Translations under genes and position numbers: made by a program
Origin: Sporomusa acidovorans
GTDB lineage: Bacteria > Bacillota > Negativicutes > Sporomusales > Sporomusaceae
Direction of reading: 5' to 3'
Assembly (NCBI RefSeq): GCF_900101845.1
Contig: NZ_FNAM01000029.1
Coordinates: 1-64,000 of the forward strand
Length of the DNA stretch: 64,000 nt
Notes under the pieces: model-generated
Database searches by the model: none
What the model was told of the DNA's origin: nothing
The model's input: only the letters and a program-made list of their open reading frames with translations
Shown: piece after piece, positions 1 to 51,515 of the stretch
How positions within the stretch are numbered: position 1 is the stretch's first letter
How the letters are laid out: every line of letters starts with the position of its first letter

Positions 1-265
<265 letters not shown>

Positions 266-14592: not shown

Positions 14593-15666
14593 TCATTCAA
14601 TCGTAATAAGCTGATAATCAAGTGATCCCATCCCGATTTTTGCCGCATGTTCCACCTGGATCATCGCATCATGATGGGCATAGGACATTTCTGCCAACGT
14701 TCTGCCATGCGCTTTGGCGGTAAGATCAAGCGTGGCTTTATCAATGGCCACCGGATCGTCAGAAGCCAGCAGGCCAATATCCGGAATCAGTTTAGTCTGG
14801 TTAACCGCAAAACAATCGCAGTCTTTCGTCATGTCAATGAGCACATTAAAATAGAAGCTCTTACCCGCTTTACCGATAACACTCCCATAGGCATGTTCAG
14901 CCATACTCCGTTGGATATAGCCTGACTCGGCATTCCAGTCATATTTTACGGCATCGAACCGGCAAACAGCCAGGCACTCTCCGCAGCCAATACACTTTTC
15001 AGTAACAATATGCGCTTTGCCGTCTTGCTCAATAATAGCATTCTGCGGGCACCATTTGATACATTTCTGACAATACTGGCAGGATTTGCGATTAATTTCC
15101 GGCATCATCGCGGAGTGTTGACGCATTTTCCCCATACGACTGGACAATCCCATCCCAATATTTTTGATGCATGCTCCCAGACCAGTCGCAGGATGGCCTG
15201 TTGGATGAGAAACTACCAGCAATGCATCGGCGCTGACAATTTCTCTGGCAACCTTGACCGTCTTATGCAGTTCACCGTTGATTTCAACTTCAAACTCTGT
15301 ATTTCCAGTTAAGCCGTCAGCCATAATGAAAGGAGCACCGACATTTTCGATGCCAAACCCGTGTTTATGGGCATGTAAGATATGCTTTACCGCATTCTCC
15401 CGTTCCCCTTTATAGAGCGTAGACGTCTCGGTTAGAAAAGGCTGACCGCCCAACTTTCTGGTCTTTTCCACCAGTTCCTTAACTATTTCCGGTTTAATAT
15501 GCGTTGTATTTTGCTTCTCACCAACATGAATTTTTATCGCCACAAAATCGTTGCCGCCAATTACCTGCGCCGCACCGGAAGCATCAAAAATCTTTGCCAT
15601 AGCGTTAGCCTGTGCAGCGGGCGGCAAAGCATCCTTAACGGGAATAAAGTAAACTTTGGCAATCAA
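14593..15666 (-). CDS. DUF362 protein with two [4Fe-4S] ferredoxin clusters
   Basis: 357 aa starting at a TTG codon with GGAGGG six bases upstream. The DUF362 domain (FVAIKIHVGEKQNTTHIKPEIVKELV, HPTGHPATGLGACIKNIGMG) is interrupted by a dicluster ferredoxin insert of about 60 residues (CQYCQKCIKWCP and CIGCGECLAVC). The last part, LIPDIGLLASDDPVAIDKATLDL, is also typical. Function unknown; an electron-transfer or metal role is usually inferred. A deleted and frameshifted relative lies at 38590-39330. It is separated from the deacylase gene downstream by about 80 bases. Confidence 0.85.
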   Translation of the reverse strand: MIAKVYFIPVKDALPPAAQANAMAKIFDASGAAQVIGGNDFVAIKIHVGEKQNTTHIKPEIVKELVEKTRKLGGQPFLTETSTLYKGERENAVKHILHAHKHGFGIENVGAPFIMADGLTGNTEFEVEINGELHKTVKVAREIVSADALLVVSHPTGHPATGLGACIKNIGMGLSSRMGKMRQHSAMMPEINRKSCQYCQKCIKWCPQNAIIEQDGKAHIVTEKCIGCGECLAVCRFDAVKYDWNAESGYIQRSMAEHAYGSVIGKAGKSFYFNVLIDMTKDCDCFAVNQTKLIPDIGLLASDDPVAIDKATLDLTAKAHGRTLAEMSYAHHDAMIQVEHAAKIGMGSLDYQLITIE

Positions 15667-29347: not shown

Positions 29348-31399
29348 ATGGATTATGGGTCATTGCATGAAATGCAAAAAAAACATTTCACATCACACAC
29401 TCTATCGGAAATGTTATCTTTTTTTCATTATACGTCGAGTCAATACACAGAAATTCAAAATTACTATACAAATTTAATTAAATACAATCAACCTCCGTCT
29501 GAGAAATCAATTGTAAGAATACCTATAGTCAATTCCTGGATTCGCTCGAAAAATAATAATATCAAGCCTGATAGAGCACTGATTTTAAAACGAGTCAGCG
29601 ACAGGCAAATTAAAATGCTGCTGAAAGATAATAAAATATTAATTGATTCGGCAATTCCTTTATTGACGAATTTATCTCATACGCTTCTAAATAAATCATC
29701 CGGATTATCTTTATATGATAAAAATGGTATTAATTTATTTGTGGCTAATAGTGCTTTAGATGGAATGGGCTTAGGCAATGATTTGTCCGAAGAATCCGTC
29801 GGCACTACTTCCCACTCGCTTTGCATTAATTTGGAAAAGCCTGTCTATGTTCTTTCACCGGAAAATTATCATCCGGATTTACGAAAGCCGAAAGTTACTT
29901 TTTCTGTCCCCATTTATGATCAAACCGATAGAATTATAGCCGCACTTACAATTCCATACTTTGGAGACCTTACATACACAGAAATAGAAAAGTCTCATTT
30001 TTTATGGATGCTCAATTTCCTGTTTATGCTGGAAAAAAACATCGAACAATCTATTGTATCACTGACTTATAAGCCCCAAATCCGGGTAGAAAATGTTTCG
30101 TTTGATACGGCGATGTCCTTAGTCGACGAATCTGTCATCGCTGTCGATTCGACAGGGAACATTTCCTACATAAATAACAACGGGGAAGCTTTATTGGGAA
30201 CCCCCAAAGGCAACGTAATGGGAAAGCCCTATTCTGTTATTCTTGGCGTAATTCCGGAAATAGAAAGACTCCTCAAGAAAAAAATAAAGAATAACCATGT
30301 AATTGCGCAGTATACCTTTGTAAGTAATGATCAAAAATATCTCATTAAAATGAAATCCGCTTCCATGCCGCAAGATGAGCATTCTGTGTTACTCTGCATT
30401 TCTAATGTTACTGCCAACAGCAAAGCTCCAATAAGAGATGCAGCAGGCATAACCCATCCGGTAGATATAATTTTAGGCAACAGCGAGGAAATGTTAAAAG
30501 CTAAACAAATAACGAAAAAAGTAGCCAATACGATGAAAAGCATATTACTTATCGGCGAAAGCGGGACAGGTAAAGAACTATTTGCTCACGCAATTCATCA
30601 GGCATCACGACCGGAAGGGCCTTTTGTTGCTGTCAATTGTGCCGCTCTGCCAAAAGGTATTCTCGAAAGCGAACTTTTTGGCTATGAAGGCGGAGCTTTC
30701 ACGGGCGCTGACAAAAACGGACGCGTAGGAAAGATTCAAATGGCACATGGCGGAACCCTATTTCTGGATGAAATAGGGGACATGCCGCTAGAATTGCAGG
30801 CCGTATTTCTTCGTGTTTTGGAAGATAAGCAGGTTATGCGTATTGGCGGAACGGAATCCAGCAAAGTTGATTTCCGTATCGTAGCGGCAACCAACCAAAA
30901 TTTGCAGGAAATGATCGACAATAAGAGCTTCCGGGAAGATTTGTATTATCGTATTGCAACTTTCGAAATTTTGATTCCGCCGCTGCGGCAAAGGAAAAGC
31001 GACATTTTAAGACTGGCGCAACAGTTTATTGAAGATGAATGTTCAATGCAGACTGTGATACCGCAAATGGATGATGCAGTAAAACAAAAACTTTTGAAAT
31101 ATGAATGGCCTGGAAATGTACGGCAATTGAAAAATACCATTGATTATGCAGTCAGTATGTTAATCGGCGAAAAAATAACCTTAGACGATTTGCCCGAAAA
31201 AATAATAAGAAGTAAAAACCTGCCTCAGAAAGCCATTTCAGTTAAAACCATGGCGGAATTAGAAAGAGAAGCGATTGAAGATGCATTATTATCGGCAAAC
31301 AATAGTGTCAAAGAGGCAGCCGACATTCTACAGATGAGTCGCACTACGTTATATAGAAGGATTAAGGAATATGGCATCTCCTGTATGGACTTAGACTAA
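29348..31399 (+). CDS. Sigma-54-dependent activator (GAF/PAS-AAA+-Fis), first copy
   Basis: 683 aa, AcoR-like architecture: sensory GAF-like region (about 90-230, with [15 protein letters not shown]), PAS domain (about 250-350), AAA+ domain and C-terminal Fis helix-turn-helix ([23 protein letters not shown]). Walker A is GESGTGKE (about 403), the sigma-54 contact loop is GAFTGA, and Walker B is [10 protein letters not shown]. It opens promoters bound by sigma-54 polymerase in response to an unknown ligand. It is convergent with the chemoreceptor gene and very similar in layout to the activator at 39449-41497. Likely targets are the -24/-12 promoters described here. Confidence 0.93.
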
Positions 31400-31460
31400 A
31401 TACTGCCTTTCAGGTTGTTTCTAAGCTTCTGCTACTTGTTTTTCTGCCAAAAAGTAAATA

Positions 31461-31507
31461 AATGAGTTGCTAATTATAAAACTTAATTCTATAATTAGCA
31501 ACTCATT
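31461..31507. terminator. Bidirectional terminator, perfect 18-bp stem
   Basis: aatgagttgctaattata pairs perfectly with tataattagcaactcatt across an 11-base loop, T-rich on both exits, between convergent genes. Confidence 0.9.
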
Positions 31508-31627
31508 TTAATTTTTCAATATAATACTATATATTCCCCAACCCACCACCGCCTGCAAAACTGTAATGTGTTGTATATAGTATCCATAAAATTGATAACG
31601 AGGTTATTGGTAAAGCAGCGAGTTGGC

Positions 31628-33601
31628 TTACATCCTGAACTTATTGATTGTCGCCTGTAGTTCTTCTGCCAATTGTGCCAGGTGATGACTTGAAGATGCG
31701 ATCTCCTCCATGGACGCCGATTGTTCCTCGGTTGCAGCAGAAATACTTTGTGTCTGACCGGCAATTTCACGGCAGATAATCTCAATTTCTTTCATTGATG
31801 CAAGAACCTGTGTACTGAAGCTGGCAAGTCGTTTCATTCCATCGGCGGCTTCCTGAGCGATGAACGCCATTTGTTTTATCTGTGTATCAATATCCATAAA
31901 GGACTTACCGGCCTGATTAACCACCTCGGAGCCAATCTTAACTTCCTGCGTGCCCGTATTCATCGCAGCTACCGCCCTATCTGTTTTACTCTGGATATTG
32001 CCAATGAGGGCTGCAATCTGCTTAGCCGCCTCCTGGGATTGCTCGGCCAATTTTCTAACTTCTTCAGCAACTACGGCAAACCCTCTTCCCTGTTCGCCTG
32101 CCCGTGCCGCCTCAATAGCGGCGTTTAATGCCAATAAATTGGTTTGTCCGGCTAAGCCGGAAATTGTTTCGACAATTTGTCCAATTTCTTGGGATTGTTG
32201 TCCAAGTTCAGAAACTACCTGTGCAGAATTATCTACCGTCTGCCTAATATTATTCATCTGCTGAATAGCGCTTTCCACTGCGCTATTTCCCGCTGCAGCC
32301 GCACTAACAGCTTTGGTGGCAATAGCAATGGAATTCTCCGTCTTAGCAGCCTCTTCCTGAGCACCAGACGTAATTTTTTCCACCATGCTTAATGCTTCCT
32401 CCACAGCTTTCACCTGACGCTCAACACTCTGAGCGGTATCAGTAATAGAGGAACTCACCTGGCCTGCAACCTGGGCTACCTGTTCGGAATTCGCAGTTAG
32501 CTCTTGCGAAGAGGCGGCAACCTGTTCAGAGGAACCATTAATATGCTGTACCAGACGTCGCAGATTAGCCGTCATTGTTTCAAAAGCACGGGCCACATGA
32601 CCCATTTCATCCTGAGAATAAACGTTAATGTCGCTCAGCGTAAGATCCCCGTCAGCAATGCATCCGGCCGCACTCTCAAGCTTTTTCAACGGCTTAGCGA
32701 ATTTGCTTGCTAACAGCAGCACAATAGCAGCAGCTATAATCAGCACAAGCAGACTGATACCAACTGATGTCCAGGTAAATGTGTTAAGTTTTGCTCTTAC
32801 TTCATTCTCCGGCACATTTACACCTATCGACCAATTGCACCCCGCAATTGGCGCATAAGCAAGATATCTTTTACTTCCGAAATTTTCGTATCGTACAATG
32901 CCTTGTTCCCCTTTGATCATTTTTTCAGTAGCGGCCTTTAATGTTGGCGGTGCATTAGGATCAATAAGGCAGCTGATCGAATTGATCAATTCTTTATTGG
33001 GATGCATGATAATAGTTCCGTCACCCCGAATCATATAGGCATAGCCTGTTTCGCCTGACTTTACTTCAGAAACTAGTTTTTCCAGCTCCTCAATATGAAT
33101 CAGAGCAGCAATCACGCCGATGATGCGGTTTTCAACCCGAATGGGAACCGAGATAACAGTAACTGACTTATTCGTTTCTTTAGACACAATAGGATCGGAA
33201 ATATACGTTTCTCCCTTAATTGAGCGTTTAAAATACTCACGTTCTGCTAAATTTCTTGTGACTCCTTTATGGTCAAACGAATCGCCATTGCCAGCAATCC
33301 ATATCAAACCTTCATAAATCTTAGCATCTTCCAGTTCAGAGGCTAGGTAAGGCATTATCGTGTCTTGCTTGCCGCTAGCAATAATAGGTGAGCGGGCAAT
33401 TAATGCAATTTCATTCTTTTGGCTATTCAACCAGCCGCTGATTTGGAAGGCACTCCCTTGTGCTTTACTAGTAAGTTCTTGTTCTGTGTCCTGTACTATA
33501 ATTTTTTGAGCCTGCCAATAATTCAATCCTGCCAGTAAACCTAATGCAAGTGCAACTAAGCTAAGAACAATTGCAGCAAATTTTATCTTGATACTCTTCA
33601 T
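31628..33601 (-). CDS. Methyl-accepting chemotaxis protein with Cache sensor domain
   Basis: 657 aa. An N-terminal helix, an extracytoplasmic double-Cache domain (about 35-265; [23 protein letters not shown] and [16 protein letters not shown] are typical), a second helix, HAMP and a complete signalling domain whose hairpin tip contains [22 protein letters not shown]. It probably steers swimming towards a small carboxylate or related ligand. The internal ATG with GAGGGTG upstream was chosen over one 24 bases earlier. It lies downstream of the SLC13 transporter gene on the same strand, suggesting they share a substrate. Confidence 0.93.
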
Positions 33602-33672
33602 AAAAAAATTCACCCTCATACGCATTTTTTGTGCAATGTTTCTGACGAGTTGCCAATCATCCCTGTATTACC

Positions 33673-33688
33673 TGCAACTTTGCTTCCA
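33673..33688 (-). promoter_or_regulatory. Weak candidate sigma-54 promoter before the chemoreceptor
   Basis: Minus strand TGGAAGCAAAGTTGCA keeps GG at -24 and TTGC at -12 with the correct spacing, but deviates at the CA(C/T) positions. The 13-base palindromic motif at 33747-33759 lies about 60 bases upstream, a plausible activator distance. Confidence 0.35.
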
Positions 33689-33746
33689 CATACCTATCGT
33701 ATAAATTCTGTTTACTTTACTATGTAAAAAAACAAAAGGTTTAACC

Positions 33747-33759
33747 ATGACATTGCCAT
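33747..33759. promoter_or_regulatory. Palindromic 13-base motif, ATGRCAWTGYCAT type (copy 1)
   Basis: atgacattgccat, nearly palindromic, upstream of the chemoreceptor gene. The same 13 bases recur at 35289-35301 and with one change at 35310-35322, before the transporter gene. Candidate binding site for one of the neighbouring activators. Confidence 0.5.
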
Positions 33760-33814
33760 TATTTTTTAATGAGCAATATCATAGTTAAAGTCGTCATACT
33801 CTAAGACTTTACAA

Positions 33815-35200
33815 TTATAGGCCAATTAAAGAAACAATAAAGGGTACCACGACGGCTAAAGTCACAATCAACCCTATGGAAGGTAAAATCCCTGCTTTCA
33901 ACGTGTCGGTCATTTTATAATAACCCTCATTATAAGTTAGCAGAAAAACCGGATTGATCGGCAATAGCCAGGTTGCCCCAAAACCGAATGCCAGCACAAA
34001 TGCGATAATCACCGGCGAGAAGCCACCGGCATTGGCAACCGCTACCATCGGTGCAGTAAACATGGCAACTGCCGCCGGTCCAACCGGAAACACAGCATGC
34101 ATACAAACAATAAGCAGTGAAAAGAATAGCAAAATAGGTAAAACGGCCATATTTTGCGTAGAGTGTATGAATAAATCAGCAATCCACTGGGCGGCTCCAT
34201 GTTTTAAAACCGCAGCGGCAACAACATTTACACTACCAAATACAATGACAACGGCCCAGGGAACCCCCTTGCAGAACTCATCCCAGGTCATAAGTTCAAT
34301 TTTAGGCAGAAACATGGCTACCAGTCCTACAATTGCCACGATAGTCGTATTCAGGGCCGGAATCCAGCTCCCGGCAATCCATAGCACAAACAAAGTGGTG
34401 ATTGCAATAATAACCTTTTGTTCATAGGCATCAGACTGTCCCAGTTGACTTGCTTTACTTCGCACCTCTGCCAAAATTTCTTCGGTAATCGGCTCCGGCT
34501 TGAATATTTTAACAAGCGAAAACCAGGTTAAGGTTGTCATGATAAGGTACATCGGAACTCCTACATACATCCATTGTACAAAGGTTATCGCCGTACCTGT
34601 GGCTTGTTCAAAGAGACTCATGGCAAGAATATTGATATTGGTTCCCGCCGGTGTGCCAAAACCGCCGATCATTGCCGAGATAGGTATCCCGATCATTAAG
34701 CACTTGCCCAAATTGGAAGAACCCGGCTTGGCATTAACGGCTTTTAATATCGGGTAGGATAAGCCAAGAAACATTAAGGCATCAGGTGTATTTGACACAA
34801 CCGTAGATAAAGTTGCCGTGCAAAACAAAAATCCAAACACCAATTTTTCAGGATTTGTTCCTGCCCAATTCATCATTCTAGCGACTATCTTTTCAGGAAT
34901 TTTGGTTTTACGTAAAATTACTACAATGGAAAAAGAGGCAATGATAAAAAATACGGATATATTGCCAAAATTTTTAAACGCATTGGTCATATCCATGAGG
35001 TTAAATATCGGCACCAGTACCATCAACAGCAAGCCGGTGATTGCCGAAGGTAAAGTTTCACAAATCCATAAGGCAATGCCTGACGCCAATATACCCAAAG
35101 AAAGCAATCCTTGTTCTGAAAGCCCTGCCGGTGGGGACACAAGCTTCGCACCTATTAAAAATATAACCCCAAGGATAAGGCCAATAATTTTTTTTGTCAA
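33815..35200 (-). CDS. SLC13/DASS-type anion transporter
   Basis: 461 aa, start TTG with GGGAGG eight bases upstream. About 11-12 hydrophobic helices and repeated SLC13-like segments (VVSNTPDALMFLGLSYPIL, IGGFGTPAGTNINILA, GFGATWLLPINPVFLLTYNEGYY). The family moves di- and tricarboxylates or sulfate with Na+. The substrate is unknown. It lies downstream of the oxidoreductase, Fe-S and zinc-ribbon genes, and a tandem palindromic motif precedes it, so it could have its own regulated promoter. Likely function: import of the substrate, or exchange with the product, of the oxidoreductase. Confidence 0.88.
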   Translation of the reverse strand: MTKKIIGLILGVIFLIGAKLVSPPAGLSEQGLLSLGILASGIALWICETLPSAITGLLLMVLVPIFNLMDMTNAFKNFGNISVFFIIASFSIVVILRKTKIPEKIVARMMNWAGTNPEKLVFGFLFCTATLSTVVSNTPDALMFLGLSYPILKAVNAKPGSSNLGKCLMIGIPISAMIGGFGTPAGTNINILAMSLFEQATGTAITFVQWMYVGVPMYLIMTTLTWFSLVKIFKPEPITEEILAEVRSKASQLGQSDAYEQKVIIAITTLFVLWIAGSWIPALNTTIVAIVGLVAMFLPKIELMTWDEFCKGVPWAVVIVFGSVNVVAAAVLKHGAAQWIADLFIHSTQNMAVLPILLFFSLLIVCMHAVFPVGPAAVAMFTAPMVAVANAGGFSPVIIAFVLAFGFGATWLLPINPVFLLTYNEGYYKMTDTLKAGILPSIGLIVTLAVVVPFIVSLIGL

Positions 35201-35288
35201 TGTAACACCCTCCCTACATATTTGAATGACAAAAAACAACCGCAAAATTTTCCGATGAAGTTTTCGAAATATACCAACATCCAAAAGC

Positions 35289-35322
35289 ATGACATTGCCA
35301 TCCTTGAAAATGACAATGCCAT
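35289..35322. promoter_or_regulatory. Tandem 13-base palindromic motifs before the transporter gene
   Basis: atgacattgccat (35289-35301) and atgacaatgccat (35310-35322), starts 21 bases apart, that is two helical turns on the same face. This is a typical layout for cooperative regulator binding. No clean -24/-12 or -35/-10 pair could be fixed between them and the TTG start. Confidence 0.55.
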
Positions 35323-35347
35323 ACTAAGCAAATTCAATTTAGCAATA

Positions 35348-35464
35348 TTAATTCTTCGGTAATGGTTCTTTACATTTTTTGCAAACAGTACTTGTAGAAG
35401 GGTTTAAGGTTCCACATGAAGGACACTTTACCGGTTTTATTGCAGTTGGTGGACGAAAACACAT
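35348..35464 (-). CDS. 38-aa zinc-ribbon protein
   Basis: A short gene: MCFRPPTAIKPVKCPSCG..., ending in CKKCKEPLPKN. Two CxxC pairs (CPSC at 14-17, CKKC at 29-32) make a minimal rubredoxin-like zinc ribbon. A strong ribosome binding site (GGGAGG, nine bases before ATG) supports it as real. It lies 30 bases after the Fe-S subunit gene, so it belongs to the oxidoreductase operon. Function unknown; it could be a small metal- or electron-handling partner or assembly factor. Confidence 0.75.
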   Translation of the reverse strand: MCFRPPTAIKPVKCPSCGTLNPSTSTVCKKCKEPLPKN

Positions 35465-35494
35465 ACTAATTATTCCTCCCTTACGTTTAATTTT

Positions 35495-35824
35495 TTATTT
35501 TAATGAAAATAAAACCATTTTCTCGCGGTTGATTTTTTTTGCCAAATCAGTTACTTCACCGAATGACATACAACCGGCTTGACAGTGTTTTACACAACTC
35601 GGAACTTTGCCTTTTTCAACTCTATTTTGGCAATGATCACACAACGCCGTAGGTGTAGGTATAAAATCATATTGCCATTTCTGATTCTCGAGCTGAGTAG
35701 GACCAAGTGTTTTTATCTCAATTCCCAATGTTTTAGCATCATAGCCGTGCTCTTGTTGACACGCGACTTCACAAGTGTGGCAGCCACTGCAATATTGATA
35801 ATCAATCAGTAAACCATGCGCCAT
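35495..35824 (-). CDS. Iron-sulfur subunit of the molybdopterin oxidoreductase
   Basis: 109 aa with cysteines at 12, 15, 18, 22 (CSGCHTCEVAC) and at 62, 65, 77, 81, 85, the pattern of DmsB/FdhB-type electron-transfer subunits with two [4Fe-4S] clusters, but shortened: the usual protein has four clusters and 180-280 residues. Its start overlaps the stop of the large subunit, so the two are surely coexpressed. It would shuttle electrons to the molybdenum subunit. Confidence 0.88.
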   Translation of the reverse strand: MAHGLLIDYQYCSGCHTCEVACQQEHGYDAKTLGIEIKTLGPTQLENQKWQYDFIPTPTALCDHCQNRVEKGKVPSCVKHCQAGCMSFGEVTDLAKKINREKMVLFSLK

Positions 35825-38145
35825 TACTGATCGCTCCCTTCATATTTGGAAATTTTACATAACAATGATTTATAGGACGCGCCAATACCGGATTTCCCTG
35901 GTCTCATTGGAACCAGACAGTTAACATTGGACTCAAATACTCCGAATAAAGTACCATCTTCCGGATCTCTTTCCGGGAACCACCATGCATGGTCAGCCGA
36001 TACCGTATCTTTACGGATGCTGATCGAAAGCTCTGCTTTTAATTTACACTTACCGAAGTTGTTTTCAACCTCTACCCAGTCATCATCCTTAATTCCATAT
36101 TTGGCCGCAGTTTCCGGATGAATGATAATCATAGGCTCTGGATTTATCCGGCGCATAGATGGACTTTGCCGATGTTCTGAATGGAACAGCGCCCATCTTC
36201 TGGCACCGGTTGTTAAAACAAGTGGATATTCTTTAGCTAGTTCGGGAGTACTGACAGGGCTTTCCGGCGGTTCCGTATAAGAAGCCACTGAATCCAAATC
36301 AAACATTTCCATAAAATCACACTTGAATTCGTATTTTCCACTTGCTGTCTCAAATCCGGGCTCTCCGTCAGATCGTAGCAGACCTTTTTCATGTTTGTAA
36401 TATTCAAACTCTGGATAAGCCCAAGTCCGTTTCCTCATATCTTCATACGTAATACCGGCATGCTCAAGGATTGTGTTATAGAACTCCTCGTCGTTATTCC
36501 ATTCATTTCTATCCGGCCTAAAACGTTTACCGATTTCATAAATTATTTGTTGGTCGGATTTACATTCACCAACTGGCTCAACAGCTTTAACAATCGCCCC
36601 AAGATAATAAGGCTGATGTCCTGTTAATCCGATTCTCTCGGCAAAACCTGCGGCTGGCAACACCACATCGGCAGCAGCAAGTGCAGTCGGCGTCATAAAC
36701 ATATCTACAACAACATTGAATTCCATCTTCAGTAAGGCTTCCAGAATTCGTTTCGGATCTGCCCCCATGCAGGTAATCGGGTTATTCGTCTGCATCCAGG
36801 TAGCTTTGATCGGATAGGGCTCACCGGTAAGCATTGCTTTTAGTAACATATCCTGACTAATACAATTCATTGCTTGTAAGACAGGATAATCTGAATTCAT
36901 TCTCTTTTGCGCTTGTTCTTCCGAAAGCATGGGTTTTTCTCCACCCCAGCGTCCCGACCAGGTTTGAGCTACGCCGAAGCAAGGACGAGCTGCAACCATA
37001 GAACCTGGCTTTTCAATATTACCTGTGAGAGCAAGCAAATCCATACATGCCATACCGGTTATAAAGCCTTCAGAGGTATGATCCATGGCGACGCCCCACT
37101 GCAGTGCTGTAGATCTTGCTTTTGCAAACGCACGTGCAGCCTCCCGTATTATGGAAGCGTCGATGCCACATATCTCAGCCGCCTTTTCCGGAGTATATTC
37201 TTTACAATGTTCAGCATACTCCTCAAAGCCATAAGTCCACTTTTCTACGAATTCTCTGTCATACAAGCCTTCCTCACAGATAACATTAGCAAATGCTAGC
37301 GCTAACGCGGCATCCGTTCCCGGTCTGACCTGCAAGAAGTACTCTGAACGTGATGCCAGCCATGTCATTTTAGGGTCAATTGTAATTAATTTACTGCCTC
37401 TTTTCATACATTCAACAATCCAGTGTCCTAACAAACCATCTGAATTCGACACAACCGGATTATTGCCCCAAATCAAAATATATTCGGGTATTTCATACCC
37501 CGGATGATCATAGCGGTCAGGGAAAAATTGAGAATAGTCCGCAACAACCAAAACACCCAGTTTTAATGCAGTACTGAAAACTCTCGGAACATAACAGGCA
37601 TTACCGCTAAGAAACCCCATGCCATAATTGGGACTTCCCATGGATTGGGCGACTCTACCGCCATAGCCATTAATATCCCGGCCGGTTCCCTGCATGACAT
37701 AAATGCTCTCCGGGCCATATTTTTCAAAAACCCCTTTTAATTTTTCCTCAATAAAATCATAGGCTTCATCCCAGGTAAGTCTTTCCCATTTATTTTCACC
37801 GCGCTTGCCAACACGTTTCATGGGATATTTGAGGCGATCCGGATGGTAAAGCATCTCTTTAACAGCTAGGCATCTAGGACAAAGCCGTCCTTGATTATAG
37901 GGATTTTCCGGATCTCCTTCAATCTTTTCTAATACACCGTCTTTAACATACATTAAAACCCCGCAGTTGTCGTGGCAGCCCGGACCTGTACGGGCATTGC
38001 CGCGAAAAACAGTATATCCGTCTTCTTCCCAGGTCCATTTGCGATCCCTCGGGTCGTCCTGGGTTTTAAATTCGTTAACCTCTACTATGGCATTGCCATA
38101 TTTAATTGCGGCACTGCCTTCCGTGTTTAAGTTTTTCTCTTCCAT
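35824..38145 (-). CDS. Molybdopterin oxidoreductase large subunit (DMSO-reductase superfamily)
   Basis: 773 aa, cytoplasmic (no Tat signal). Bis-MGD family features: an N-terminal cluster region with C57, C61, C89 and C92 (the first cysteine of the usual C-x2-C-x3-C is missing), WERLTWDEAYDFI, ILIWGNNPVVSNSD, KLITIDPKMTWLASRSEYFLQ in part, RPGTDAALALAFANVI and a C-terminal domain (YPLVLTTGARRWALFHSEHRQSP). Candidate metal ligands are S180 or C184 (SGNACYVPR). The family includes acetylene hydratase, pyrogallol transhydroxylase and catechol dehydroxylases; the substrate here is not known. A sigma-54 promoter precedes it, and an aromatic-type transporter gene lies nearby, so an aromatic substrate is my inference. 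Confidence 0.88.
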   Translation of the reverse strand: MEEKNLNTEGSAAIKYGNAIVEVNEFKTQDDPRDRKWTWEEDGYTVFRGNARTGPGCHDNCGVLMYVKDGVLEKIEGDPENPYNQGRLCPRCLAVKEMLYHPDRLKYPMKRVGKRGENKWERLTWDEAYDFIEEKLKGVFEKYGPESIYVMQGTGRDINGYGGRVAQSMGSPNYGMGFLSGNACYVPRVFSTALKLGVLVVADYSQFFPDRYDHPGYEIPEYILIWGNNPVVSNSDGLLGHWIVECMKRGSKLITIDPKMTWLASRSEYFLQVRPGTDAALALAFANVICEEGLYDREFVEKWTYGFEEYAEHCKEYTPEKAAEICGIDASIIREAARAFAKARSTALQWGVAMDHTSEGFITGMACMDLLALTGNIEKPGSMVAARPCFGVAQTWSGRWGGEKPMLSEEQAQKRMNSDYPVLQAMNCISQDMLLKAMLTGEPYPIKATWMQTNNPITCMGADPKRILEALLKMEFNVVVDMFMTPTALAAADVVLPAAGFAERIGLTGHQPYYLGAIVKAVEPVGECKSDQQIIYEIGKRFRPDRNEWNNDEEFYNTILEHAGITYEDMRKRTWAYPEFEYYKHEKGLLRSDGEPGFETASGKYEFKCDFMEMFDLDSVASYTEPPESPVSTPELAKEYPLVLTTGARRWALFHSEHRQSPSMRRINPEPMIIIHPETAAKYGIKDDDWVEVENNFGKCKLKAELSISIRKDTVSADHAWWFPERDPEDGTLFGVFESNVNCLVPMRPGKSGIGASYKSLLCKISKYEGSDQ

Positions 38146-38222
38146 TTTTTCCTCCTTGAATATCTATTTCGGATTCTCAATGCAGTCCTAACAATCCACC
38201 TCCTACGTTGAATCAGTAGTAC

Positions 38223-38238
38223 GCAAAATTCATGCCAT
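38223..38238 (-). promoter_or_regulatory. Sigma-54 (-24/-12) promoter of the oxidoreductase operon
   Basis: Minus strand TGGCATGAATTTTGCG matches TGGCAYRNNNNTTGCW at all but the last base. Transcription would start near 38211, about 65 bases before the coding start. The 440-base gap between this operon and the DUF362 remnant contains no gene; a ctaaat...atttag inverted repeat near 38304-38322 is the only other structure I see. Confidence 0.8.
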
Positions 38239-38589
38239 ATTTACTTCGCACTTTACTAGTCCATCAGGATATGACGCTAAAATTAAACTTCAGATTATCC
38301 CTCTAAATCTAGCAAATTTAGTCATTTTTTTAATTAATAATGCAGGGAGAAATTTTTTTAATTTATCATTCGCCTATTGTTTCACTGTCATCATTTTCCG
38401 GATCAAATAGGTAGTCAAGCGCAAATTTTTTCAGATTGAACTAGCCGGCATCGTTTCTGTTTCAGATTGGTCTAAAAATTTAATCCTTTTATCTTGCAAG
38501 ACATACCTTGGAATAAAAAAATTCTATAACTAGAAGCACGCCCATTGTCAACGACAGCAGATATTGTCTAACATTGTGTGTCCTTTTCA

Positions 38590-39330
38590 TTAGTCAGTTA
38601 CCTCAATTAACTCATACTCCATTGATCCCATGCCTATTTGGGCTGCGTGTTCAATTTGAATACAGGCATTTCTTTGTGGAAAAGCCAAGTGGCCTAATGT
38701 TTGTCCATAGGCAGCTCTTGTTAAATCCTGTGTTGCCTGGTCAATGGCTACCGGATCATTGGATGTCAGGATTCCAAGATCGGGTATTAGTTTCGCGTCC
38801 GGCTTCTTACAAGGCAATCGCAATTTTGCGTCATATTGATTAACACATTAAAATAAAAGCACTTTCCCGGCTTATCAATCACGGCACCGCAGGCGTGTTC
38901 AGCCATACTTTTCTGAAGATAGCCCTCATCTGCATTAAAATTGTATTTTACTGCATCGAACCGGCAGGTTGCGATACACTCGCCGCAGCCAATACATTTG
39001 TCGGCGACAATATACGCTTTGCCATTGTCCTGGATAATAGCATCAGCGGGACACCATTTCATACATTTTTTACAATAAGTACATTGTGAACTGTCAATGA
39101 TGGGTAATACAGCCGAATGCTGGCGCCTCTTTCCTTTGCGGCTTGCCAGCCCCATACCGAGATTTTTAATGCATGCGCCGAGCCCTGTAGAGATTATGCC
39201 GTTCTCCTTTATATAATGTTGATGTTTCTGTTAAAAACGGAACAGCGTCTTCATGATTCACTCTTTTTACCAGTTCACGGATTAATTCCGGTCTAATGCG
39301 AGTATTATTGATTCCTTCGCCCTGGCTTAC
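38590..39330 (-). pseudogene. Decayed DUF362 ferredoxin gene
   Basis: Three pieces in different frames together resemble the intact protein at 14593-15666. The first piece matches residues about 53-90 (NNTRIRPELIRELV, FLTETSTLYKGER). About 70 codons are then missing and the frame shifts. The second piece covers GLGACIKNLGMG and both cluster motifs (CTYCKKCMKWCP, CIGCGECIATC) up to NCDC. A second frameshift follows, and the last piece is KLIPDLGILTSNDPVAID to the end. The first 50 residues are also replaced. It cannot make the full protein. A sigma-54-like promoter and a cobalamin riboswitch fragment lie just upstream. Confidence 0.85.
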
Positions 39331-39341
39331 ATTATCTGTAT

Positions 39342-39357
39342 TGCACAATTCATGCCA
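39342..39357 (-). promoter_or_regulatory. Sigma-54-like promoter before the DUF362 remnant
   Basis: Minus strand TGGCATGAATTGTGCA fits the -24/-12 consensus except for one T at -14, and shares its first eleven bases with the oxidoreductase promoter. It indicates that the decayed gene once belonged to the same regulon. Confidence 0.65.
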
Positions 39358-39362
39358 ATAAT

Positions 39363-39417
39363 AAAAAAGACTTGGGTCACGGCAGGTCTTCCGACCAACC
39401 ATAACCAAGTCTTTTTC
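39363..39417 (-). promoter_or_regulatory. Cobalamin riboswitch remnant with terminator-like stem
   Basis: On the minus strand GTCGGAAGACCTGCC is present, the strongly conserved 3' motif of cobalamin riboswitches. It is enclosed by the stem AAAGACTTGG/CCAAGTCTTT followed by T's. The rest of the aptamer (the GGGAA and GCCACTG boxes) is absent, so only the closing stem and the 3' part remain. Probably non-functional as a B12 sensor, though it may still terminate transcription. It also lies directly after the second activator gene and could serve as its terminator. Confidence 0.65.
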
Positions 39418-39448
39418 GCTTTAGCCTCGCGTATTTTACAGTTTTTTA

Positions 39449-41497
39449 TCAGTGTTCAACATGAATGCCGTATGCTTTAATTTTTCGATACAGAGTTGTA
39501 CGGCCTAACCCCAGTATTATTGCCGTTTCTCCTAAACTATTCCCCGTATAGGCCAAGGCTTCTTCTATGGCCTCTTTTTCTAATTCGGTTAATGATCTTA
39601 TTGTTTTTTGCTGATTTTTTTCCGCAATATCCAGTAGTTCCTCTGGCAAATCGCGTAAACGGATAGTTCCCTTTTCCCGCATATTAACCGCAAAACACAT
39701 AGCATTCTTCAATTGCCGGATATTTCCCGGCCAATCATATTGCATAAGGCGTTTACAAACCGCCGCCTCCATTTCAGGTACCGGTCGGTTAAGGTCACTG
39801 CTTTGCTTGTGAATAAACAGGCGGGCCAATTCTAAAATATCCTTGCCTCTGCTTCGTAACGGCGGTATAGAAAGTTTAAAGGTCGCCAGGCGAAAATACA
39901 GGTCCTCCCGAAACTCCTTTTGTTGCACCGCCTGGTAGAGATTCTTATTTGTTGCGGCAATAACACGAAAATCAACTTTTATATAGGTTTCGCCGCCAAT
40001 GCGCATAACACGTTTATCTTCCAGTACCCGTAATAACACAGCCTGTACCTCAAGCGGCATATCCCCAATTTCATCCAAAAATAAAGTTCCACCGTTGGCC
40101 ATTTCTAACTTCCCGACTTTTCCTTTGCGCGCCGCTCCGGTAAAACTTCCTCCTTCATAGCCAAACAGTTCGCTTTCTATCAGGCTCTTAGGAATAGAAG
40201 CACAATTAATGGCAACAAAAGGACTTTGCGGGCGACAGGCATTATGAATGGCATGGGCAAACAGTTCCTTTCCCGTGCCGCTCTCGCCAATTAACAATAT
40301 ACTGCCGCCGGTACCGGCGATTTTTTGTGCCACTTGCTTTGCTCTGACCATGGCAATACTTTTTCCGTAAATATCATTAAACGTGTAGATGGCTTTAAAT
40401 CGTTCTTTTTTTTCTGTACTGCCGGCGGCTTTTATTTCCTTTAAATGAATAACTGCGCCTTCCATGCAGTCTTGGCTATCCATGATCGACTTTACTTCGC
40501 ATAAACAGTGTTTAAATTTCTTGCCGGTAATGATGTCTGCTGCAAAAGTGGCTTCCGTTATTTTTCCCTGTAATACATTGTCAATCATCGGTGAATTGCC
40601 AATAATATCAGAATAAGGTTTCCCTAAGATCTTGTTTTGGCCTATCCCCAGAATTTTTTCCCCGCCACTGCTTACATAAATAACCCTTCCCGAGCAGTTT
40701 ACGCCAACCATCCCGTCTTCCAGCATGGACATCGCCGTAGACAAGAGACTAATATCAAAACTGTACATGTGTTTCTGACTAGCCATTTCCATAGCATTTT
40801 CAATTCTCTGAGCCATTGAAATTTGCCAGGCAATCCACCATACAAACAAAGTCTCTTCATCCTTACTTTGAGCAAGATCACGGTGATAAGAAAAGGTAAA
40901 GGAGGCGACAATGTTTTTTCTGGCGTCATGTATGGGAATTGCCGTTATAACTTTACTGCTTCTTTGCATAACTTCGTTATAATGTTCCGGTCCTATTAAA
41001 TACATAGGCTTATCTAATTGTAGGCAGATAGCATGGGCAGATGTACCGACCGACTCTTCGGAAAGATTTAAGCCGGAACACTTTAACTGGTCAATATGGG
41101 AATTATATAAAAACAGCAGAATCCCGTTACGATCCGTCAACCCTACCCGGAAAGGTTTTGTCTTGTTTAAAAAGTGAACTTGCTTACTTAATAATGGCAC
41201 TGCAACTTGCATAAGTTGTTCATTCTCTTTTAGCACTTTGTTAAATTGCGCTGAATCTAAGACTTTTCGCGTCAACGGCTGATTAGGAACTACACCATAA
41301 TTTTTAGACCGGTGCCAGGAAGCCATAACTTCCGGACGAACAGCAGCAAAGGTTTCTGATTCTCCCGTATTTTTCAAAAAATTTTCTCTACACTTGCTGA
41401 TTTTTTCCCATTGCTTGAATTGAGAACGAAAAAAGGCGGTAAGTTCTTTAATCTGTTTTTCCTCATTTTCTTCTAAAATAAACTGCCGGCCCTGCAT
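39449..41497 (-). CDS. Sigma-54-dependent activator (GAF/PAS-AAA+-Fis), second copy
   Basis: 682 aa, the same layout as the activator at 29348: GAF-like sensor ([30 protein letters not shown] in part), PAS (about 255-350), AAA+ with GESGTGKE and [10 protein letters not shown], and a C-terminal Fis domain ([23 protein letters not shown]). The sigma-54 contact loop reads GSFTGA instead of GAFTGA. It points away from the MFS gene, which has a perfect sigma-54 promoter, and towards the DUF362 remnant and oxidoreductase. It is likely the activator of one or both. A good ribosome binding site (AGGAGG) precedes the start. Confidence 0.93.
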
Positions 41498-42044
41498 TAT
41501 CTAACCTCCTTTAGGCACTTCCAGCTAATAATGCTATGTAATGTGAAACAAAACTTTAAATATTTTGTATTATGTCATATTTAAAAATTCGACGCAAGAG
41601 ATGATTTTCCTCATAGTTTAAAAATATAGAAAAAATTTTTTTAAAGTGGGTAATGAACTCAGACTACTTCTAAATTTTATCATTACATTAAAAATATTTA
41701 TAAAAATTGTTCCATATCGATCGATTTAGCAATGTAACGATTATTTTTTTGTTTCATTTTGGAATATATTTTTCCGGTTATTATTTTATTAAACTCTAAT
41801 TATTTGTTTTGCTATGCTCACTTCCAGGCCACCGGCACTAAGTATCCCTTTAGCATATTTTTACTATTCTCCTTTCGGTATTTTGTTCCGTTTTGAACCA
41901 TTAGACACCGCCAACAAATTTTTGCATTGCATGGAATCTACAAATTCACTTATGCTATATTCTCGTCTGTAAAGCGCTAAGATCCAGTTCTGTTAGAATT
42001 TTGCCAATAGATAACATAGAGATCACAGGTGTAACAAAATAGCC
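41498..42044. other. Long A/T-rich intergenic region between activator and MFS gene
   Basis: No convincing gene on either strand. It separates the divergent activator and MFS genes and must hold the activator's own promoter and any upstream activator sites for the sigma-54 promoter at 42045. I could not assign these sites by eye. Confidence 0.5.
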
Positions 42045-42060
42045 TGGCACACAAATTGCA
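42045..42060 (+). promoter_or_regulatory. Perfect sigma-54 promoter TGGCAC-N5-TTGCA
   Basis: TGGCACACAAATTGCA matches the -24/-12 consensus at every fixed position. The start would be near 42071, giving a leader of about 120 bases before the MFS gene. That leader has a second AAGGAGG (42099-42105) and a direct repeat ttaccaaattttt (42106 and 42137). Confidence 0.88.
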
Positions 42061-42191
42061 TTGTTTTATCGATTGTCAGCCTGACTTCACTAACAAACAA
42101 GGAGGTTACCAAATTTTTGAGAATTATAAAGATGCTTACCAAATTTTTATGTAAATCTTAGACATATGCCTTTGGCAAGGGAGATTAGTTT

Positions 42192-43508
42192 ATGAATACA
42201 TTCGACGTTAAGAAGTTACTTGATGAGAGCTCTATACAGAAACATCATTGGCGATTATTTTTCTGTTGTTTAACAGCGCTTTCTTTTGATGGCTATGATC
42301 TTGTTGTATATGCTACAACAATCCCCCTGCTACTCGCCGAATGGAATATGAGCCCCGCTTATGCAGGACTCATTGGCAGTTATGCATTTGGTGCCGGTGT
42401 GTTTGGTGCTGTATTAGGTGGCGTTTTAGGAGATAAATGGGGAAGAAAAGCTACCATTATTACATCTGTGGTGATATTTACGGTAGGTACCTTTGCAACG
42501 GCATTGGCAAACAGCCCGCTGTTATTTGGTGTATTCCGCACAATTACCGGTTTGGGACTTGGCATGACATCGCCTAATGTCATGGCCTTAATTTCAGAAT
42601 ATTTTCCCAATAAATCAAAACAAGCAGCCGTTTCTGCGAGTGCCACCGGCATGCAAATAGGCGGAATCATGTCCGCCCTGGCCGGTATGTACTTACTGGC
42701 TCCTTTCGGCTGGAAGTCCGTTTTTTACTTTGGGTCAATCGTAATTTTTCTAGTGCCCCTTCTCTACTGGTACATGCCGGAAACGCCCTGGATACTGGTA
42801 GCTAAAAACAAAATTCCCCAGCTCAAACAAATATTGAACAAATTCAGGCCAGACATTACTGTACCTGATGATGCCCATTTTGAGTATCCTCATGCCAAAG
42901 AAAAGTCATCACTTACCAATGTTTTTGCCGAGAACAGGAGTTTAAGCACAGGTCTTTTTTGGTTAGTATATTTCATGAACATGTATATGATTTTTGGCAC
43001 CAACACCTGGATACCAACATTGATGATGAATGCGGGCCATGAATTTGGATTGAGCTTATGGTTTTTTCTGTCCCTGTTCCTGGGTGCAGGTATAGGGAGC
43101 CTGGTTTGCGGATATTTGACCGAACATTTTGGAGCCAAACGAATTTTAGTGATTCTCTACTATGGCGCTTTTTTTTCCATCTCGCTATTAAGTGTCCCCA
43201 TGAACATGTATTGGACGACAATTATTACCGCGCTTGTAGGTGCCTGTACTATGGGGGCTCAAAATGTCACCCACGGATATATTGCGCAATACTATCCACC
43301 TGCTGTACGGGCGACCATGATGGGATGGGGACTTGGCTTAGGCCGGTTTGGCGGTCTTCTTGGCCCTATCGTTGGCGGCATGTTGTTGTCCATGAAAGTC
43401 AGCCTGTTCCAGAATTTTCTTTGTTTTGCAATACCAGGCCTGATTGCCGGTACTTGTATTGCACTTATACAGGACAAATATAGTTACGCCAGCCGTCCCA
43501 CGCCATAA
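42192..43508 (+). CDS. MFS transporter, aromatic acid:H+ symporter (AAHS) type
   Basis: 438 aa with 12 hydrophobic helices. Helix 1 carries the AAHS hallmark FDGYDLVVY, and the loop after helix 2 has GVLGDKWGRK, the MFS signature. Members of this family import benzoate, 4-hydroxybenzoate, protocatechuate and similar acids with protons. The substrate here is unknown. The perfect sigma-54 promoter and adjacent sigma-54 activator tie expression to the presence of an inducer. The start has AAGGGAG upstream, and a strong terminator follows. Confidence 0.9.
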   Translation: MNTFDVKKLLDESSIQKHHWRLFFCCLTALSFDGYDLVVYATTIPLLLAEWNMSPAYAGLIGSYAFGAGVFGAVLGGVLGDKWGRKATIITSVVIFTVGTFATALANSPLLFGVFRTITGLGLGMTSPNVMALISEYFPNKSKQAAVSASATGMQIGGIMSALAGMYLLAPFGWKSVFYFGSIVIFLVPLLYWYMPETPWILVAKNKIPQLKQILNKFRPDITVPDDAHFEYPHAKEKSSLTNVFAENRSLSTGLFWLVYFMNMYMIFGTNTWIPTLMMNAGHEFGLSLWFFLSLFLGAGIGSLVCGYLTEHFGAKRILVILYYGAFFSISLLSVPMNMYWTTIITALVGACTMGAQNVTHGYIAQYYPPAVRATMMGWGLGLGRFGGLLGPIVGGMLLSMKVSLFQNFLCFAIPGLIAGTCIALIQDKYSYASRPTP

Positions 43509-51298: not shown

Positions 51299-51515
51299 AA
51301 AACAAGCCTTCCCATTTTGGAAAGGCTTGCTAGCAGATTCAAGCAACATGGAGCATCACTAATAAGCGCATAGTATTGCGCTGCCTGAAAATTGCTCCTT
51401 TCCAAAAGGGAGACATAGCCGTTTCCAGCTATACCGATCGGCTGAACACCATACCATGCTGGGTTAGGCAATTCAGCTAGGGAGCCAGTATTTACTTTAA
51501 CTACCCATTAATCAT
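51299..51515 (-). promoter_or_regulatory. Structured leader or small RNA with intrinsic terminator
   Basis: On the minus strand a likely promoter (TTGTTT-18-TATGAT, near 51512-51541) is followed by about 180 bases with several hairpins: GCTGAA...TTCAGC, ATAGC-TGGAAACG-GCTAT, CTCCCTTT-TGG-AAAGGAG and GCGCA...TGCGC. Three segments, GCTCC, GGAGC and GCTCC, could pair in alternative ways. It ends in the terminator CAAGCCTTTCC...GGGAAGGCTTG followed by TTTTATTTT. This fits a riboswitch/attenuator for the downstream gene, or a separate small RNA. The rest of the 480-base gap holds no gene. Confidence 0.6.

Follow-up and report, generated by a model that had tools for sequence, protein, structure and literature searches.

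The locus described here occupies positions 29348-43508 of a 64,000-nt stretch of the Sporomusa acidovorans genome (contig NZ_FNAM01000029.1; assembly of 6.0 Mb in 126 contigs), which we call the window. It encodes two sigma-54-dependent activators (A and B), a dCache chemoreceptor, an SLC13 and an AAHS (aromatic acid:H+ symport) carrier, a molybdopterin oxidoreductase of two subunits, and a 38-aa zinc-ribbon microprotein of the MCFRP family (Table 1). A first-pass annotation had named all of these genes from the sequence, and domain scans recovered every one; a DUF362 pseudogene was overlooked. Our subjects are the oxidoreductase, a putative catechol dehydroxylase, its apparent sigma-54 control, and the microprotein encoded beside it.

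By sequence, the nearest solved protein to the large subunit is acetylene hydratase (2e7z, E 1.2e-85), which is also the best fold match of a large-subunit model of moderate confidence (pLDDT 70.6) that served for the fold match only. Pyrogallol transhydroxylase (4v4c) ranks 29th by fold and falls outside the list of sequence matches (E up to 1e-20). Among the named genomes, the closest sequence is that of Sporomusa sp. KB1 (94% identity), followed at 62-68% by enzymes of Raoultibacter, Adlercreutzia, Gordonibacter, Ellagibacter and other Coriobacteriia and by further Coriobacteriia sequences at 55-60%. Five Coriobacteriia genomes carry 15 to 47 matches each (E 1e-100 or better). Those outside the ortholog group do not exceed 51% identity, and the group itself includes two partial matches (64 and 69%) in G. 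pamelaeae 7-10-1-b. In a set of 41 genomes related to the host, no genome except that of KB1 has a match above 53%.

A FastTree phylogeny of 195 sequences, a single tree method with weak support at deeper nodes (0.23, 0.50), places the window and KB1 enzymes as sisters to 15 Coriobacteriia enzymes (55-68% identical) in a 17-leaf clade with support of 1.0; a transfer from one phylum to the other is plausible. PMC7028382 gives primer sequences for dodh, which encodes the DOPAC dehydroxylase. One of them matches G. pamelaeae 7-10-1-b exactly (G045:C1:1999994-2000013), inside a paralog other than the ortholog of the window enzyme. Dodh lies in the same tree branch as the window enzyme; because the primer falls inside this different paralog, which is 45% identical, Dodh is only a cousin and was rejected as an ortholog. 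Gs Vadh also appears unlikely to be an ortholog, as the ortholog locus of Gordonibacter sp. 28C has one MFS carrier and a LysR gene versus the two transporters published, and a rough estimate from locus-tag numbers disagrees too. (+)-Eldh1/2 were placed tentatively, as a pair of adjacent genes. The group that is sister to the Dodh clade (support 1.00) includes a further paralog of the host genome, on contig C117. The equally scoring host paralogs C117:382-2592 and C23:176-2386 each lie at a contig end; they are either tandem copies like those of KB1 or one gene that the assembly has split.

The window enzyme is a two-subunit one, its 109-aa Fe-S partner adjoining the 773-aa large subunit. Neighbor genes were tallied at 45 related dehydroxylase loci from 17 genomes, with some misses at contig ends, and a small subunit lies within 400 bases of the large subunit at all 45. 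By eye, we saw no twin-arginine leader in the translated N-terminus of the large subunit and no membrane-anchor gene beside the dehydroxylase at the locus. Because of the tree clade, the Dodh anchor and the ortholog identities, we consider that the window enzyme belongs to the Gordonibacter-type, two-subunit, cytoplasmic catechol dehydroxylases. The first-pass annotation had related it to acetylene hydratase, transhydroxylase and catechol dehydroxylase alike; the tree and identities narrow this to the last of the three. A position within a clade of established non-aromatic function, which the first-pass annotation had named as a refutation, was not observed.

Transporter neighbors, here the SLC13 and AAHS carriers, bear on the substrate. 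AAHS-like carriers lie within 6 kb at 7 of the 45 related loci and dCache receptors within 8 kb at 12. Among 18 comparable loci examined in Coriobacteriia, seven (L039, L040, L044, L046, L049, L097 and L101) carry a relative of the SLC13 carrier (38-41%) no more than 6 kb away, which gives a hint of a carboxylated substrate. In an alternative reading, SLC13 imports a di- or tricarboxylate that is non-aromatic and either hydroxylated or unsaturated, and the enzyme acts on this compound. The recurrence of SLC13 in Coriobacteriia would suit this reading, as would the presence of SLC13 at only 2 of the 45 related loci, both in the clade of the window enzyme. We judge it improbable nonetheless, as the characterized enzymes of this branch that are named in the available parts of the literature act on catechol-type substrates, and the locus also holds an AAHS carrier with a perfect sigma-54 site.

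The Fe-S cysteines speak to the type of reaction. In the classical Fe-S motif, CxxCxxxC, the first cysteine corresponds to position 54. The window enzyme has Gly at this position and carries Cys57, Cys61, Cys89 and Cys92. It does not match the acetylene-hydratase CxxCxxxC...C pattern, as checked at position 54 of the alignment; the pairwise alignment with the hydratase starts behind the hydratase's first Cys. Across 195 aligned proteins Cys54 and Cys92 are mutually exclusive (24 with Cys54 only, 149 with Cys92 only, 22 with neither, none with both). This looks like a swapped cluster ligand, with Cys92 as the putative fourth one, that would be a signature of most of the dehydroxylase branch. 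Cys184 is present in all 162 sequences with at least 40% identity and is a candidate molybdenum ligand. That the enzyme is instead a non-reductive relative, a hydratase or transhydroxylase that adds or moves hydroxyls, is suggested by acetylene hydratase being the best solved match by sequence and fold, and by transhydroxylase homologs of the host genome that share the ribbon and the activator type. We nevertheless regard it as very unlikely: the enzyme sits inside the catechol dehydroxylase branch, lacks Cys54 where the classical motif begins, and has a dedicated small Fe-S subunit, while the genome encodes separate transhydroxylase-like genes.

The features of a sigma-54 regulon are present, with RpoN encoded in the host genome, activators with AAA+ and HTH domains, and -24/-12 sites before target genes. 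Activators A and B are best called AcoR/DhaR-like from their domains (Sigma54_activat, AAA lid and HTH_8, with weak PAS matches). Sites were scored with a matrix built from consensus values (maximum score 18.5). Three of the five window sites scoring at least 13 lie directly upstream, in the right orientation, of the AAHS carrier, the DUF362 relic and the dehydroxylase; the same window scan saw none before SLC13, the ribbon, activator A or activator B. The corresponding stretch of KB1 has 10 sites of at least 12 in 19 kb, four of which precede AAHS, one MFS gene, DUF362 and the dehydroxylase; the remaining six do not precede those genes.

Comparison with related genomes gives the stronger evidence. 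A site of at least 12 lies within 450 bases upstream of 28 of 51 large-subunit genes versus 2 of 51 on the reverse strand (near-identical genes merged; some are not dehydroxylases and two have almost no upstream sequence), and sigma-54 control therefore seems to be a shared design of these molybdoenzyme genes in related genomes. Coriobacteriia loci have an upstream site in 4 of 47 cases versus 1 of 47 on the reverse strand. Upstream sites were also found for 12 of the 14 ribbon starts examined, some being identical with those of the 51-gene count. Together with RpoN, these counts lend support to the sigma-54 regulon that the first-pass annotation had proposed.

An activator similar to B lies within 6 kb at 27 of the 45 related loci. 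The host genome encodes 56 such activators; among the 15 best-scoring, whose positions were read, 11 lie at most 6 kb from a catechol dehydroxylase or transhydroxylase-like gene, three are near Tat-type molybdoenzymes, and one (C19) is near neither. A common inverted-repeat activator site was sought upstream of AAHS, the dehydroxylase, the chemoreceptor and DUF362, and was not found. For Coriobacteriia, two papers report LuxR-type regulators of catechol dehydroxylases (PMC9734109) and a LysR regulator of one dehydroxylase (PMC11887054).

Table 1. Features of the locus and of the surrounding window. Scores of -24/-12 sites refer to the matrix described in the text.
Feature	Position	Strand	Evidence and remarks
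Activator A, sigma-54-dependent, AcoR/DhaR-like, 683 aa	29348..31399	+	PF00158 E 1.8e-66, HTH_8; 80% identity and same synteny in KB1
dCache_1 methyl-accepting chemoreceptor	31628..33625	-	PF02743 E 9.6e-29, MCPsignal; 83% identity to KB1 counterpart
Weak -24/-12-like site before chemoreceptor	33673..33688	-	TGGAAG-N5-TTGCA; score 10.1; not conserved in KB1
SLC13/DASS anion carrier	33815..35290	-	PF00939 E 3.4e-41, PF03600, TIGR00785 (187.6 bits, slightly below the 198.6 cut-off); start may be TTG 35200, from KB1 comparison by eye
Zinc-ribbon microprotein, MCFRP family, 38 aa	35351..35464	-	M1 C2 F3 R4 P5 and four Cys
Small electron-transfer subunit (predicted), 109 aa	35495..35824	-	Two 4Fe-4S-type cysteine motifs; partial match to DmsB-like subunits
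Catalytic subunit, catechol dehydroxylase family (predicted), 773 aa	35824..38145	-	PF00384/PF01568/PF04879
-24/-12 promoter-like site before dehydroxylase operon	38222..38237	-	TGGCATGAATTTTGCG; score 13.8; conserved in KB1
DUF362 ferredoxin-type pseudogene	38599..39321	-	Broken frame, stretches lost; three tblastn pieces against an intact 356-aa relative; intact in KB1 (L122:8112-9182)
-24/-12 promoter-like site before DUF362 relic	39342..39357	-	Score 14.3; KB1 counterpart
Activator B, sigma-54-dependent, 682 aa	39449..41497	-	PF00158 E 5.4e-65
Perfect -24/-12 site before AAHS carrier	42045..42060	+	TGGCACACAAATTGCA; score 18.5 (maximum)
AAHS-type MFS carrier	42192..43508	+	TIGR00895 E 4.5e-90 (302 bits, below the 418.55 cut-off); 90% identity to KB1 counterpart
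16S rRNA gene, 5' part, at window edge	1-265	-	
DUF362 paralog, intact	14593-15666	-	62.5% identity to the DUF362 protein of another dehydroxylase locus
Molybdenum/tungsten cofactor riboswitch	51379-51496	-	Rfam RF01055, 56.4 bits

Gene order is kept in KB1 with a single difference, one additional MFS gene between AAHS and activator B. That the locus is a decaying or silent remnant whose neighbors are not co-regulated, as its DUF362 pseudogene could indicate, is highly improbable given that the other frames are open, KB1 retains the order at 78-94% identity, the sites before the dehydroxylase and DUF362 are conserved there, and the window holds an intact DUF362 paralog.

The most surprising part of the locus is the MCFRP ribbon. 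Its start (M1 C2 F3 R4 P5) and two CxxC pairs (four Cys) are invariant in 15 sequences. None of the members scanned falls into a Pfam or NCBIfam family, and among the matches listed for the window ribbon none reaches its cut-off, the best being general ribbons; the family is unnamed and probably a new partner protein. A structure model is of middling confidence (pLDDT 75.5, pTM 0.36). The start motif occurs within 6 kb at 32 of the 45 related loci. With matches required to begin at model position 1 at E below 1e-10, full-length ribbons were found in all 17 genomes that encode a dehydroxylase and in one (G002, 58% complete) of the 24 that do not, the host's own being among these 41. This count is partly circular, since the underlying alignment (A1) was itself made from 15 ribbons that neighbor dehydroxylases, and 11 of the 15 come from 5 of the 41 genomes. 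The strict search gave 43 matches; 40 lie on the same contig as a gene for a dehydroxylase or transhydroxylase, at a distance of at most 3 kb in 30 cases and at most 6 kb in 35. When the threshold is relaxed to E 0.01, 37 of the 41 genomes show a match of some kind, but these matches include general zinc ribbons.

A fairer test takes 299 genomes drawn evenly from the phylum (ribbon E 1e-9, enzymes E 1e-150), with part of each genome's candidates scored (up to 23 for the ribbon and 3 for the enzymes), so that misses are possible. The ribbon was found in nine genomes, all among the 11 with a dehydroxylase (7) or transhydroxylase homolog (7), and in none of the 288 with neither (Fisher p 1e-15, or 3e-14 minus the window's own genome, kinship ignored). 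Two genomes (G154, G055) had an enzyme and no ribbon that we found. Leaving out the window's own genome, 10 ribbon matches remain: seven are no more than 5 kb from an enzyme gene, and the other three are 28 kb distant (G114) or on another contig (G161, G266). The five Coriobacteriia genomes have 69 ribbons at E 1e-6, of which 46 are at most 5 kb from a dehydroxylase match versus 6.3 expected. Fifteen of the 23 that are not within 5 kb of a listed dehydroxylase were followed up: eight lie in stretches with a transhydroxylase-like gene (35-60% identity), four with another DMSO-reductase-family gene, and three with neither. Dodh is itself flanked by an MCFRP ribbon on one side and by a variant ribbon, its motif start replaced, on the other.

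On balance, we lean toward the ribbon being a common working part of two distinct molybdoenzyme families that serve anaerobic phenol metabolism in Bacillota and Actinomycetota, the catechol dehydroxylases and the pyrogallol-type transhydroxylases. These enzymes would need it to assemble the cofactor or Fe-S clusters, or would use it as a mini electron carrier, and it would flag new members of both classes in any genome. A second, longer cysteine-rich ribbon family (e.g., CWSCNPYCGGC...) recurs at dehydroxylase loci (L117:5742-6062, L119:4917-5195 and L123:13029-13325).

The host genome holds further molybdoenzyme loci. Three pyrogallol-transhydroxylase-like two-subunit enzymes are encoded at L205:6756-10167, L206:6752-10180 and L207:9549-12941 (contigs C42, C46 and C54). 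Each is accompanied by an MCFRP ribbon and a similar sigma-54 activator, and has a sigma-54 site upstream of either the ribbon or the enzyme gene; the transhydroxylase assignment comes from the match to pyrogallol hydroxytransferase 4v4c (E 2e-137). A dehydroxylase paralog at L121:7691-18732 (contig C28) has genes for a family III CoA-transferase, a thioesterase and an acyl-CoA ligase nearby, perhaps forming a CoA-linked phenylacrylate pathway. Tat-type molybdoenzymes at L216:7195-12687 and L217:7170-13554 (contigs C38 and C28) each lie near a relative of activator B and, by eye, beside membrane-anchor-like and chaperone-like genes, a plan that resembles the Eggerthella-type dehydroxylases. 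The nearest solved relative of the L216 enzyme is acetylene hydratase.

Taken together, we consider it likely that the locus is a substrate-inducible cassette for the reductive dehydroxylation of a carboxylated catechol; its reaction, substrate class, electron source, co-regulation and ribbon role are what we infer from sequence comparison. In such a cassette, activator A or B would sense the catechol acid or a related cue and drive RpoN-RNA polymerase at the -24/-12 promoters upstream of the AAHS gene and of the dehydroxylase operon, and perhaps also of the chemoreceptor gene. The operon would comprise the large subunit, the small subunit, the MCFRP ribbon and probably SLC13. The carriers would import the substrate, and the small 4Fe-4S subunit would feed electrons to a cytoplasmic bis-molybdopterin guanine dinucleotide enzyme, which would remove one ring hydroxyl as water in a two-electron step before the product is exported. 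The microprotein would act as a dedicated accessory factor in assembly, metal handling or electron transfer. The host, presumably an acetogen, would gain an extra electron sink and make use of catechols from the O-demethylation of methoxylated lignin monomers. PMC4585845 suggests that Sporomusa phylotypes O-demethylate methoxylated acids to protocatechuate and gallate; it also reports 3-hydroxybenzoate in a vanillate enrichment, whose later steps are credited there to other bacteria. The window enzyme may act on such O-demethylation products.

Several observations weigh against a sigma-54-controlled cassette for a carboxylated catechol. The number of -24/-12 sites in the window is at chance at three thresholds (8, 5 and 4, against means of 8.2, 4.0 and 2.5 in 50 dinucleotide shuffles); because the whole-window count is not enriched, the case for these sites comes from placement and recurrence only, and of the several promoters claimed in the first pass it is the positions and not the number that hold. 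The upstream region of the chemoreceptor is not conserved in KB1, and 18 of the 45 related loci, some at contig ends, have no activator within 6 kb. SLC13-like genes also stand at three dehydroxylase loci of Gordonibacter sp. 28C outside the clade (L132, L134 and L148). Since the usual cargo of SLC13 carriers is di- and tricarboxylates or sulfate, a non-aromatic substrate is conceivable. The locus may be losing function because the adjacent DUF362 gene has decayed, and we found no reported substrate for any member of the window's ortholog clade. Nonetheless, the reading that appears to fit the data best is a sigma-54-controlled, reductive conversion of an aromatic acid. The first-pass interpretation is partly supported and points mostly the right way.

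The catechol dehydroxylases characterized so far come mainly from Coriobacteriia of the gut, where their expression can require accessory genes whose roles are only partly clear. If our reading is true, a sigma-54 version at several loci of one acetogen would bring this chemistry into lignin and tannin turnover, in organisms that themselves produce catechols by O-demethylation. The MCFRP ribbon is so small that annotation can miss it; if it is an accessory factor, it could matter for heterologous expression, and it offers a simple genomic marker for both enzyme families.

The acetogens include Clostridium ljungdahlii. Dehydroxylase homologs have been noted before in a range of environmental bacteria, this species among them (PMC7028382), so that finding one in an acetogen is in itself nothing new. 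In the main text of open-licence PMC papers, we found nothing on a Sporomusa catechol dehydroxylase or on a sigma-54-controlled one, no zinc ribbon mentioned together with transhydroxylase, and no zinc ribbon in the nine papers listed in a further search; for Sporomusa, catechol and dehydroxylation together, only PMC4585845 was found in the open-licence PMC literature. The first-pass suggestion that the combination may be undescribed is thereby divided: the enzyme class has been described, and its kind is known from gut bacteria, but the sigma-54 switch and the unnamed zinc-ribbon partner look new.

Four known systems invite comparison. Acetylene hydratase of Pelobacter acetylenicus is the nearest solved structure by sequence and fold, but it is a single chain in the solved entry, carries the classical CxxCxxxC Fe-S pattern and catalyzes a non-redox reaction. 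Pyrogallol-phloroglucinol transhydroxylase shares the DMSO reductase superfamily, and its host homologs share the ribbon, the activator type and sigma-54 sites. Its reaction is a non-reductive transfer, its large subunit is distant, and the small subunit of its homolog (272 aa) has an extra C-terminal domain; subunits of about 870 and 270 aa compare with 773 and 109 aa in the window. The Eggerthella-type enzymes (Dadh, Hcdh and Cadh) belong to the same reaction class according to the available parts of PMC7028382 and PMC11887054. By the description given there, they are set apart as Tat-exported and membrane-anchored, Dadh with a TorD-like chaperone, none of which is seen at the window locus. 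Closest are the Gordonibacter-type enzymes (Dodh, Gp Hcdh, (-)-Eddh/Cldh, (+)-Eldh1/2, Gs Vadh and Eadh1-3), which share the two cytoplasmic subunits, the tree branch, the transporter neighbors, the many paralogs per genome and, for Dodh, a flanking MCFRP ribbon. The window locus differs from them in having sigma-54 activators instead of the LuxR and LysR regulators reported in the available sources, and in an enzyme that resides in a Sporomusa acetogen, in its own ortholog clade, and with a linked dCache chemoreceptor.

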